A stretch of DNA of 41,005 nucleotides from Gemmatimonadota bacterium. GTDB taxonomy: Bacteria > Gemmatimonadota > Gemmatimonadetes > Gemmatimonadales > GWC2-71-9. Positions 34,690-37,363 of the stretch are shown here, piece after piece. The notes beneath the pieces are model-generated. The model worked only from the letters and a program-made list of their open reading frames with translations. It did not search any database and had not been told where the DNA came from. The position numbers and the translations under genes were made by a program. The stretch spans positions 1 to 41,005 of the forward strand of contig JAHECL010000008.1 in the NCBI GenBank assembly GCA_024641745.1, in the 5' to 3' direction. Within the stretch, counting starts at the first letter, position 1. Every line of letters begins with the position of its first letter.

Positions 34690-34695
34690 ATTCTA
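34690..34695 (-). promoter_or_regulatory. candidate -10 box for the dehydrogenase gene
   Basis: TAGAAT on the minus strand matches five of six consensus bases and overlaps the hflX stop codon (34695-34693). The leader to the ATG at 34662 would be about 20 nt. No good -35 hexamer is present. Confidence 0.4.
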
Positions 34696-35922
34696 GCCGA
34701 CCGGCGGGGCACCCGCCACGCTGGTTCCCAGCACCTCCACCCCGTCGTGCCGGAGGCGCGCCAGGTCCTCGGGCGGGAGCCGCACCAGCAGGTCGAACCC
34801 CTCGGCCGAGTCCCGCCGCTCCATCACCTCGCCCAGCCGGTAGAGCGCCGCGAGCCGGGCGCCATCGGTAAGGGGCAGCCGCAGCCAGGTCGGCGGTCGC
34901 AGCTCCTTCTCCCGTTCCCGGAGCGCCGCCCGCAGGGTGGCGAGGCCGTCGGTCCGCATCGTCGTCGTCAGGACCGCGCCGGGATAGATCGCGGAGACCC
35001 GGCGCCCGAAGTCGACGGGGTCGGCCAGCTGGTCCATCTTGTTGAACACCGGCAGCACCGGTCGGTCCTGGAGCCCCAGCTCGAGGAGCACCTCCTCCAC
35101 CACCTGCATCTGCTCTTCCCACGACGGGTGGCTCGCGTCGACCACGTGCAGCAGCATGTCGGCCGAACGCGCCTCCTCGAGGGTGGCGCGGAAGCTGGCG
35201 ACGAGATGGTGGGGCAGCTTCCGGATGAAGCCCACCGTGTCGGTCACCCGCGCCCGGTACCCCTCCCCCAGTTCCACCTCGCGGGTCAGCGTATCCAGGG
35301 TGGCGAAGAGCCGGTCCTCGACGACGATTTCGTGCTGCCCCGAGAGGCCCCGCAGGATGCTTGACTTCCCCGCGTTGGTGTAGCCGACGAGGCTGACGCT
35401 CAGCATCGGCGTGCGGCCTGCCCGGATCGTCTCGCGATGACGCTCGACGTCCCGCAGCTTGCCCTTCAGCCACTGGATCTTCTGGCGGATCATCCGGCGG
35501 TCGGTCTCGAGCTGCGTTTCGCCGGGCCCGCGGAGGCCGATGCCGCCCCGGATGCGGGAGAGGTGGGTCCACATCCGGCGCAGGCGTGGCAGGAGGTATT
35601 CGAGCTGGGCCAGCTCCACCTGCAGCTTGGCCTCGTGGCTCCGCGCCCGCGTCGAGAAGATGTCGAGAATCACCTCGGCCCGGTCCATGACGCGCACCTT
35701 GAGCTCCCGCTCGAGGTTGGCGCCCTGCATCGGCGACAGCTCGTCGTCGAAGATCACGAGCGTGGCTCCCGTCGCCGCCACGAGCGCCGCCAGCTCCTCC
35801 ACCTTTCCTTCCCCGATGAGCGTCCCCGGATGGGGGGACTCGACCTGCTGGGTCAGCCGGTCGAGCACCCTGGCGCCGGCGGTGTCCACCAGGCGCGCCA
35901 ACTCGTCCAGGTGCTCCTGCAT
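34693..35922 (-). CDS. hflX: GTPase HflX
   Basis: HflX binds 50S subunits and splits stalled or heat-damaged ribosomes. From ATG 35922 it has 409 residues. The HflX domain shows HPGTLIGEGKVEEL, FDDELSPMQGANLE and RGGIGLRGPGETQLETDRR. The G domain has G1 GYTNAGKSS, G3 DTVGFI and G4 NKMD. The homologous N-terminus appears to begin earlier. The in-frame codons upstream encode ESPAERAILVAAPRKGSPDV, the usual first strand of the family, but contain no ATG, GTG or TTG back into rarA. ATC at 36009-36007 is the only start-like codon (438 residues). The gene may use a rare start, be slightly truncated, or contain a base error. Confidence 0.93.
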   Translation of the reverse strand: MQEHLDELARLVDTAGARVLDRLTQQVESPHPGTLIGEGKVEELAALVAATGATLVIFDDELSPMQGANLERELKVRVMDRAEVILDIFSTRARSHEAKLQVELAQLEYLLPRLRRMWTHLSRIRGGIGLRGPGETQLETDRRMIRQKIQWLKGKLRDVERHRETIRAGRTPMLSVSLVGYTNAGKSSILRGLSGQHEIVVEDRLFATLDTLTREVELGEGYRARVTDTVGFIRKLPHHLVASFRATLEEARSADMLLHVVDASHPSWEEQMQVVEEVLLELGLQDRPVLPVFNKMDQLADPVDFGRRVSAIYPGAVLTTTMRTDGLATLRAALREREKELRPPTWLRLPLTDGARLAALYRLGEVMERRDSAEGFDLLVRLPPEDLARLRHDGVEVLGTSVAGAPPVG

Positions 35923-36040
35923 CGCCGAGACGTCGGGCGACCCCTTGCGGGGTGCGGCGACGAGAATGGCCCGCTCGGCCGGGCTCTCAACATTGATGAG
36001 GTCTCTGATGGCGCCTGGTTCCCCTGCTGCTGTGGAAGGA

Positions 36041-37363
36041 CTACCCGCGGTCGGCCTGCTCGCCTGTCCCCCTGCCCTGCCGTTCCCACCACGCCATCCG
36101 TTCGGCGATCCGCTTCTCCAGCCCCATCGGACCCGGCTCGTAGAACCGTTCGCCCTCGAGGCCCGCCGGAAGGTACTCCTGGGAAATGTACGCCGCTGGC
36201 GCGTCGTGCGCGTAGCGATACCCTTTCCCGTAGTCGAGCTCCTTCATGAGCCCGGTCACGGCATTCCGGAGATGCAGCGGCACCGGGGCCGCCGGGGTCC
36301 GTTGCGCCGCCTCCCGCGCCGCCGCCCAGGCGGTGTAGACCCGGTTCGACTTCGGCGCGGTCGCCAGGTAGACGATCGCCTCCGCGAGCGCGAGTTCGCC
36401 TTCCGGAGCGCCGAGAAAATCGTACGCCTCCTTGGCGGCGAGCGCGACGTGCAGCGCCTGCGGGTCCGCCAGCCCGACATCCTCCGTCGCCATGCGCACC
36501 ATGCGACGGGCGAGGTAGAGCGGCGTCTCGCCGCCCTCGATCATCCGCGCCAGCCAGTACAGCGCGGCCTGCGGGTCGCTGCCCCGGACCGCCTTGTGCA
36601 GCGCGGAGATCAGGTTGTAGTGCCCCTCTCCAGACTTGTCGTAGGCCGGCAGCCGGCGGGCGAAGACATCCGCCGCAATCTCCCGGGTGACTTCCCCGCC
36701 CAGCCCCACCTGCTGCGACGCGGCCTCGAGCGCCGTGAGCGCCCGGCGGGCATCGCCGTCCGCGGCGGAGGCCAGGAACGCGATGGCCTCGTCCGTCACC
36801 CGCAACTCCATCGCGCCGAGCCCCCGCTCCCGCTCGGTCACCGCGCGCCGGAGGAGCGCCGCGAGATCCTCCTCCGGGAGCGGCTCCAGCACATACACCC
36901 GCGACCGGGACAGGAGGGCGGCATTCAGCTCGAAACTGGGATTCTCGGTGGTGGCGCCGATGAGGGTGATGAGCCCGGACTCGACGGCGGGGAGGAAGGC
37001 ATCCTGCTGCCCGCGGTTGAAGCGGTGGATCTCATCGCAGAAGAAGATCGTCTCCCGCCCGAGCCGGCGCCGGTCCTCCGCCTCGCGGAGGATCTCCCGC
37101 ACCCGCTGCACTCCCTCGGTGACCGCGCTGAAGGTGACGAACTCGCGCTCGGTGTGACGGGCAATCACGCGGGCCAGGGTGGTCTTCCCGGAGCCCGGCG
37201 GCCCCCAGAGGATGACGCTCCCGACGTCCCCCCGGCGGATCGCATCGCCGAGCGCCCGGCCCGGCGCCAGGAGGTGCGCCTGCCCCACGACTTCGTCGAG
37301 GGTGCGGGGACGAAGCCGGGCGGCGAGTGGCTCCGCCGGTGCGAAGAGGGACGGCTCGTTCAC
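36041..37363 (-). CDS. rarA: replication-associated recombination protein A
   Basis: RarA (MgsA) is an AAA+ ATPase related to clamp loaders that acts at stalled forks. The 440-residue protein has LAARLRPRTLDEVVGQAHLL at about 13-32, Walker A GPPGSGKTT at about 54-62, Walker B IFFCDEIHRFN, sensor 1 IGATTENPSFE and the arginine-finger region LLSRSRVY. The C-terminal tetramerisation part includes YDKSGEGHYNLISALHKAVR and MVRMATEDVGLADP. All motifs are intact. It lies 10 nt after the ZIP transporter gene. Confidence 0.96.
   Translation of the reverse strand: MNEPSLFAPAEPLAARLRPRTLDEVVGQAHLLAPGRALGDAIRRGDVGSVILWGPPGSGKTTLARVIARHTEREFVTFSAVTEGVQRVREILREAEDRRRLGRETIFFCDEIHRFNRGQQDAFLPAVESGLITLIGATTENPSFELNAALLSRSRVYVLEPLPEEDLAALLRRAVTERERGLGAMELRVTDEAIAFLASAADGDARRALTALEAASQQVGLGGEVTREIAADVFARRLPAYDKSGEGHYNLISALHKAVRGSDPQAALYWLARMIEGGETPLYLARRMVRMATEDVGLADPQALHVALAAKEAYDFLGAPEGELALAEAIVYLATAPKSNRVYTAWAAAREAAQRTPAAPVPLHLRNAVTGLMKELDYGKGYRYAHDAPAAYISQEYLPAGLEGERFYEPGPMGLEKRIAERMAWWERQGRGTGEQADRG

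Follow-up and report, generated by a model that had tools for sequence, protein, structure and literature searches.

The stretch of DNA analysed here (the window, 41,005 nt) carries two genes that follow each other in the same direction on the minus strand. The upstream gene is rarA/mgsA (36041..37363), with a GTG start at 37363 and a TAG stop at 36043-36041, and the downstream gene is hflX, for which a coding sequence of 438 codons and a stop is proposed at 34693..36009. The frame of hflX is open from just after a TGA at 36244..36246, the nearest in-frame stop upstream, down to its own stop at 34693, and thus overlaps the end of rarA in another frame. Between this TGA and the ATG at 35920..35922, which is the first standard in-frame start and would be Met30 of the proposed protein, no ATG, GTG or TTG is found in the hflX frame. 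The codons read in frame ahead of this ATG are IRDLINVESPAERAILVAAPRKGSPDVSA. They contain the ATC at 36007..36009 that is proposed as the start codon, 31 nt beyond the rarA stop. A Shine-Dalgarno-like AGGGG (36021..36025, minus strand) lies 11 nt before the ATC, and the best 9-mer pairing there, AGCAGGGGA, reaches −6.5 kcal/mol, as compared to −2.7 kcal/mol before the ATG at 35922.

When read from the ATC, the protein scores 436.6 bits against the HflX GTPase profile TIGR03156 (curated cut-off 216.75), with residues 26-365 aligned to positions 14-349 of 351, and displays the N-terminal, middle and G domains in that order (GTP-bdg_N, PF13167; GTP-bdg_M, PF16360; MMR_HSR1, PF01926). Ribosome splitting by this HflX, an activity that takes stuck ribosomes apart, is inferred from its membership of the family. 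In the AlphaFold2 model (alignment A1; mean pLDDT 83.9 overall, below 50 for residues 1-7), residues 13-18 (RAILVA, 35956..35973, minus strand) form the first β-strand, and mean pLDDT is 93 for residues 11-20. The earlier note on this DNA, made from the letters alone, had claimed that the usual first strand of HflX is coded before the ATG at 35922 and that the frame stays open into rarA without a standard start; the predicted strand and the reading of the frame bear out both statements.

Gemmatimonadetes are mostly soil bacteria. The survey of the class took in the DNA for the HflX N-terminus in 106 genomes, with one locus from each, spread over seven families (f1, f2, f4-f7 and f9), families f3, f8 and f10 lying outside it. 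These loci, together with six from a second class of the phylum, were drawn from overlapping sets, one in which HflX was found in 264 of 298 genomes and one in which any match was found in 59 of 61. Matches L001-L003, which are the window's own genome again or other GTPases, and genomes with matches cut by a contig end were excluded before counting. Positions were numbered from an anchor, codon 0 being the E (or D) of the ER motif in PxERAxLV. A locus was taken to have no standard start when ATG, GTG and TTG were all missing between the in-frame stop ahead of it and codon −8, and a column of ATC, ATT or ATA (ATH, or AUH in the message) was sought at codons −13 to −11. The background in upstream codons is 2.2% for ATH and 3.2% for the standard starts, and ATH occurs in any three upstream codons at 6.5%. 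With standard starts so rare among upstream codons, a single frame that lacks one proves little, and the weight of the argument rests on recurrence.

A standard start ahead of the conserved HflX N-terminus is missing in 63 of the 106 loci, in line with the earlier claim that the gene has its family N-terminus but no ATG, GTG or TTG to begin it. In 62 of these 63, ATH stands at −13 to −11, against the 6.5% expected; the exception, L079, has ATA at −8. The open frame is often short, the in-frame stop lying within 25 codons of the anchor in 34 of the 63 and within six codons before the AUH codon in 15. In hflX of the same-genus genome G002, the codons run TGA GTC ATT CGG GAT CTC, and the first three of these leave no room for any other start. 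Eight named metagenome-assembled loci (L146-L153), from the same group and partly from the same genomes, show the same pattern, and in the second class of the phylum hflX has a standard start in all six loci.

Compared at the column of the ATC, the homologues carry AUC, AUU or AUA in 91 of 106 loci, a standard codon in 10 and neither in five (ATC 62, ATT 26, ATA 3, GTG 7, ATG 2, TTG 1). AUH at the sought column is found in 35/40 loci of f1, 31/36 of f2, 11/12 of f5 and 5/5 of f9, and in 4/6, 4/5 and 1/2 loci of the smaller families f4, f6 and f7. The search for this column admitted only start-like codons, which makes the absence of other codons automatic. The fair count takes a single position for each family, −11 for f1 and f4 and −12 elsewhere, and finds ATH there in 79 of 106 loci and a standard start in seven more, the rate of ATH among upstream codons being 2.2%. 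By family, the fixed codon is ATH in 29/40 loci of f1, 29/36 of f2, 11/12 of f5, 4/6 of f4, 2/5 of f6, 3/5 of f9 and 1/2 of f7.

The other 43 loci have a standard codon somewhere upstream or at −8, which makes an AUH start likely in them but not forced; 29 of the 43 have ATH at the column. The 10 loci with a standard codon at the column indicate that AUH is not indispensable, and three of these 10 (L021, L047 and L048, with GTG at −13 beside ATG at −8) may be mis-assigned. The loci with neither kind of codon at the column are L030, L087 and L094, which have ATG or GTG at −8, L107, which has ACG at −11, and L079. In family f1, an ATG at −8 is seen downstream or instead of the AUH codon in L020, L039-L041, L043, L021, L047 and L048; a shift to a standard start is possible in these loci.

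The prevalence of ATH does not by itself prove a start, since ATH fills an internal isoleucine column at −7 to about the same extent (92 of 101 rows). The exceptions at that internal column are not standard start codons, unlike those at the start column. The assignment rests instead on the missing standard alternatives, the Shine-Dalgarno signal and the boundary of conservation taken together. Residue identity between loci rises abruptly at the AUH codon, from 0.09 to 0.93 in f1 (30 loci), from 0.13 to 0.73 in f2 (34 loci) and from 0.25 to 1.0 in f5 (11 loci), and several of the codons that follow are conserved too. The mean Shine-Dalgarno profile peaks at −5.3 kcal/mol for 9-mers beginning 14 nt before the AUH codon, over a background of about −0.4 to −1.3 kcal/mol further upstream, and the best pairing within −21 to −4 averages −6.3 against −3.9 for shuffles. 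The mean at the AUH hflX loci is −6.7, as compared to −3.6 at 97 genes of one f2 genome, while the f2 loci alone average −4.7, which does not differ significantly from those 97 genes (p 0.065). The window and its relatives thus show what is known from infC and pcnB: AUU, AUC or AUA at a conserved place behind a Shine-Dalgarno sequence at normal spacing, and, in the window and in 63 of 106 loci, no ATG, GTG or TTG able to start the conserved protein. The earlier note had named the ATC at 36009-36007, about 11 nt after AGGGG, as the best candidate, and the relatives single out that very codon. Initiation of hflX at this AUC is well supported by the comparison of sequences.

Three other readings of the N-terminus were weighed against the AUC start. 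HflX might be shortened, beginning at the ATG at 35922 or at another standard codon downstream; this ATG is the first standard start in the frame, and the protein that begins there matches Pfam GTP-bdg_N from its residue 3 onward. Such a start would remove the predicted first β-strand, the codons upstream of it are conserved as protein, its Shine-Dalgarno sequence is the weaker one, and across the class 52 of 62 loci pair more strongly at AUH than at whichever standard codon comes first downstream. Nor do the relatives that lack a standard start upstream agree on the place of this Met, the outcome that the earlier note had named as speaking against its proposal: their first downstream standard codons are scattered from −5 to +74 of the anchor and coincide with the place of 35922 (+18) in only five of 62 loci. 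A shortened HflX is therefore highly improbable, and the ATG at 35922 was rejected as the main start. An N-terminus supplied from an out-of-frame or upstream standard start by frameshifting or read-through could draw on the out-of-frame ATG at 35993 and on the open frame into rarA, but out-of-frame standard codons do not recur (at most four loci per offset within 24 nt), and in L005 and L017 an in-frame stop lies two codons ahead of AUH. This reading is scarcely credible, and an out-of-frame start with a frameshift was rejected for want of any recurring out-of-frame start.

The genome of the window is a draft of 228 contigs, in which an ATG could in principle have been lost by an error of sequencing or assembly. 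The same class of codon is, however, present in 91 of 106 genomes, including the single-contig genomes G043 and G058, and this recurrence, together with the TGA GTC ATT of the same-genus genome, makes the chance of such an error so small as to be negligible. Translational coupling to rarA, considered as a general cause of the unusual start, is unsupported, the spacing of rarA and hflX varying widely: of 98 loci, 51 showed rarA, with gaps of 2 to 1175 nt from stop to start and four overlaps, and 47 did not, many of the latter being represented by only a few hundred bases.

The persistence of the AUH codon in the class was then set against a quick tree of the 106 loci, built from the anchor onward, in which 101 loci have an assigned codon. 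This tree requires a minimum of 31 changes of the start codon and a minimum of seven crossings between AUH and a standard start. The start codon therefore turns over within AUH, which indicates that it is not simply frozen by recent descent, and ATC, ATT and ATA are each one substitution away from ATG. Judged from these sequences, selection very probably keeps the hflX start weak, and the joint claim of a start at AUC and selection for its weakness is held with the same high confidence.

A comparison of 400 kb around hflX between G043 and G058 served as a control, in which 230 ortholog pairs were tested in the coding frame; it replaced an earlier pairwise version that had flagged 129 of 266 pairs and was swamped by overlapping upstream genes. 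Two versions of the test each put eight of the 230 pairs over the threshold for coding signal ahead of the first standard start that the two genomes share. Inspection by eye left hflX as the one pair of the 230 in which a standard start is clearly missing on both sides. This control undercounts, since it missed infC, the ATT start of which was recognised only by eye. Two further genes of G058 (contig C1, block L274-L293) seem to differ from their counterparts in G043. A folC-like gene has no standard start before its conserved GAWRLGLERV, where G043 has ATG and GTG, and a pcnB-like gene has ATA where G043 has GTG as its apparent start, with a GTG five codons later.

The earlier note had likened the case to infC, which uses AUU in known instances, and the comparison proves apt, as infC of the same lineage also looks non-AUG. 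The loci compared include L116-L145, and their start places were aligned by eye. In f1, CTG stands at the aligned start in 23 of 25 loci, including the window's own genome (L128, G000:C213); of the other two, L131 has TTG and L124 could not be parsed. ATT is found in all three f3 loci (L126, L143 and L145) and in three of four f2 loci (L144, G043 and G058), with ATG in the fourth (L141); G043 and G058 both read ACT ATT CAG GAT. These CTG and ATT starts are likely but not forced, because many of the loci have in-frame standard codons further upstream; in L122 and L135 the CTG is forced by a stop two codons before it. The infC of the window's own family thus appears to use CUG rather than AUH.

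Beyond the phylum, a laxer cut was applied to Chloroflexota and to the control loci, in which a standard start was sought before codon −3. The samples were non-random: 53 loci of Chloroflexota (the 30 best-scoring and 20 picked, mostly from small genomes, of 194 genomes with HflX, and three others) and the 30 best-scoring of 61 genomes with HflX in Bacillota, the phylum of a Thermoanaerobacteraceae metagenome-assembled genome. In Chloroflexota, 15 of the 53 hflX loci have no standard start before codon −3, and the other 38 have some in-frame standard codon. The candidate start of each of the 15 was taken as the codon among ATC, ATT, ATA, CTG and ACG with the best Shine-Dalgarno support. It is AUH at −12 or −13 of the same anchor in 11 (L197, L204, L233, L234, L238, L241, L244-L246, L248 and L251), the best codon lies at −19 in L230 and L231, and L196 and L249 are weak. 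A TTG or GTG lies within four codons of the anchor in L196, L233 and L238. Elsewhere in Chloroflexota, hflX of L207, L208 and L211 may start at an ACG just after AGGAGG or AGG, and perhaps likewise that of L216, L217, L221, L225, L227 and L228. Among L239-L241, from small genomes, two loci have an ATG inside a GGAGG motif and the third has CTG; the true start in these is probably an ATC or ATT a few codons on.

In Bacillota, two of the 30 loci have no standard start; one apparently begins with CTG (L295, AAGGAGGGTAATCC CTG GAA) and one with ACG (L300, GGGAGGGGACGCTCT ACG GAA), each behind a strong Shine-Dalgarno-like sequence. Among 37 control loci from Bacteroidota, Clostridia and one other lineage, an in-frame standard start precedes codon −3 in 36, and L172, the only locus flagged, has an ATG among its codons. 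The Chloroflexota metagenome-assembled loci L171, L176 and L194 departed from the control pattern. In E. coli K-12, hflX starts with TTG.

The codons AUC, AUU and AUA initiate poorly, and IF3 discriminates against them. In the mechanism proposed here, hflX would be translated from the AUC at 36009-36007, read by the initiator tRNA and placed by the AGGGG, and AUC, AUU or AUA would mostly be kept in the class because poor initiation and proofreading by IF3 make HflX scarce. A relaxation of IF3 discrimination would then raise HflX synthesis. Published work states that IF3 discriminates against the AUU of infC (PMC9410913), that HflX splits 70S ribosomes and that free 30S subunits are kept from association by IF3 (PMC9067457). 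Given that both factors favour separate subunits, HflX by splitting 70S ribosomes and IF3 by keeping the halves from rejoining, a weak start would make HflX when IF3 is short, in parallel to infC: translation of hflX would rise when IF3 activity falls short relative to free 30S and would offset the re-formation of empty 70S. The arrangement suggests a scarce HflX that is tied to the state of the translation machinery. Control of the hflX start by IF3, which is argued from analogy, is a serious possibility held with somewhat less than even confidence.

Alternatively, a real AUH start may serve only as a fixed throttle, holding HflX down whatever IF3 does, in the manner of pcnB, whose expression is lowered by its AUU start (PMC1780047; PMC13009471). 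The present data bear on the weak start only and not on feedback, and a plain throttle fits them equally well. That HflX and IF3 act on the same pool of subunits (PMC9067457) and that infC of the same genomes also looks non-AUG speak for a response to IF3, both being suggestive only, and the fixed throttle is likewise put at a little below an even chance. As to the strength of such starts, AUU and AUA starts of S. aureus are reported to give about 10% of the AUG reporter yield in poor medium, ccpN reaching as much as 30% in rich medium (PMC13009471). A wider reading of control by IF3, which would join hflX and infC in a small start-codon regulon across several phyla, with a shortage of IF3 raising both factors, is more tentative and rather doubtful. 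Its codons would be AUU, AUC and AUA, at times CUG or ACG, all proofread by IF3 as in infC, and this too is offered with reserve.

Starts at AUU, AUC or AUA are known from few bacterial genes, the best known being infC, with feedback by its own product. PMC9410913 counts two E. coli genes that start at AUU. According to that source and PMC13009471, infC has AUU with autocontrol by IF3 in E. coli and AUA in S. aureus. It resembles hflX in having a non-AUG start, discriminated by IF3 in the case of infC, and in that its product, too, works on ribosomal subunits in their free state. It differs in being another gene and in that autocontrol belongs to infC, the regulation of hflX being proposed by analogy. 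The pcnB of E. coli, the other gene of that species known to begin with AUU, is kept low by this start (PMC1780047), as would be the case for hflX, but it does not encode a ribosome factor. The S. aureus genes ccpN (AUA) and cvfC1 (AUU) have conserved non-canonical starts with strong Shine-Dalgarno sequences as hflX does, and theirs were mapped by ribosome profiling and reporters, whereas that of hflX is known from comparison alone (PMC13009471). For lepA, a translational GTPase, PMC1780047 reports that full length is reached only via AUU, in two species, as compared to a whole class for hflX.

Control of hflX itself is described for Firmicutes, where hflX or hflXr is subject to leader control through the uORFC-6-1 motif (PMC8632094) and Listeria rli80 (PMC6310831). 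Its expression there is reported or suggested to depend on ribosome state (PMC6310831; PMC8632094), as in the present proposal, but the control works by leader ORFs and attenuation and not by the start codon (PMC8632094; PMC6310831). In the open-licence PMC text that was available in part, no report on the start codon of hflX was found. An AUH start is thus of a known kind, and it is the gene, the conservation across a class and the recurrence in other phyla that appear to be new.

Gene callers limited to AUG, GUG and UUG would truncate the N-terminus of HflX in these lineages, and the onset of conservation at an AUH codon behind a Shine-Dalgarno sequence provides a comparative method for finding hidden weak starts. 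With the start placed at AUC, hflX would be a second translation-factor gene with a start of this kind, and one that carries it across a class, which points to a shared mode of coupling between ribosome splitting and initiation fidelity.
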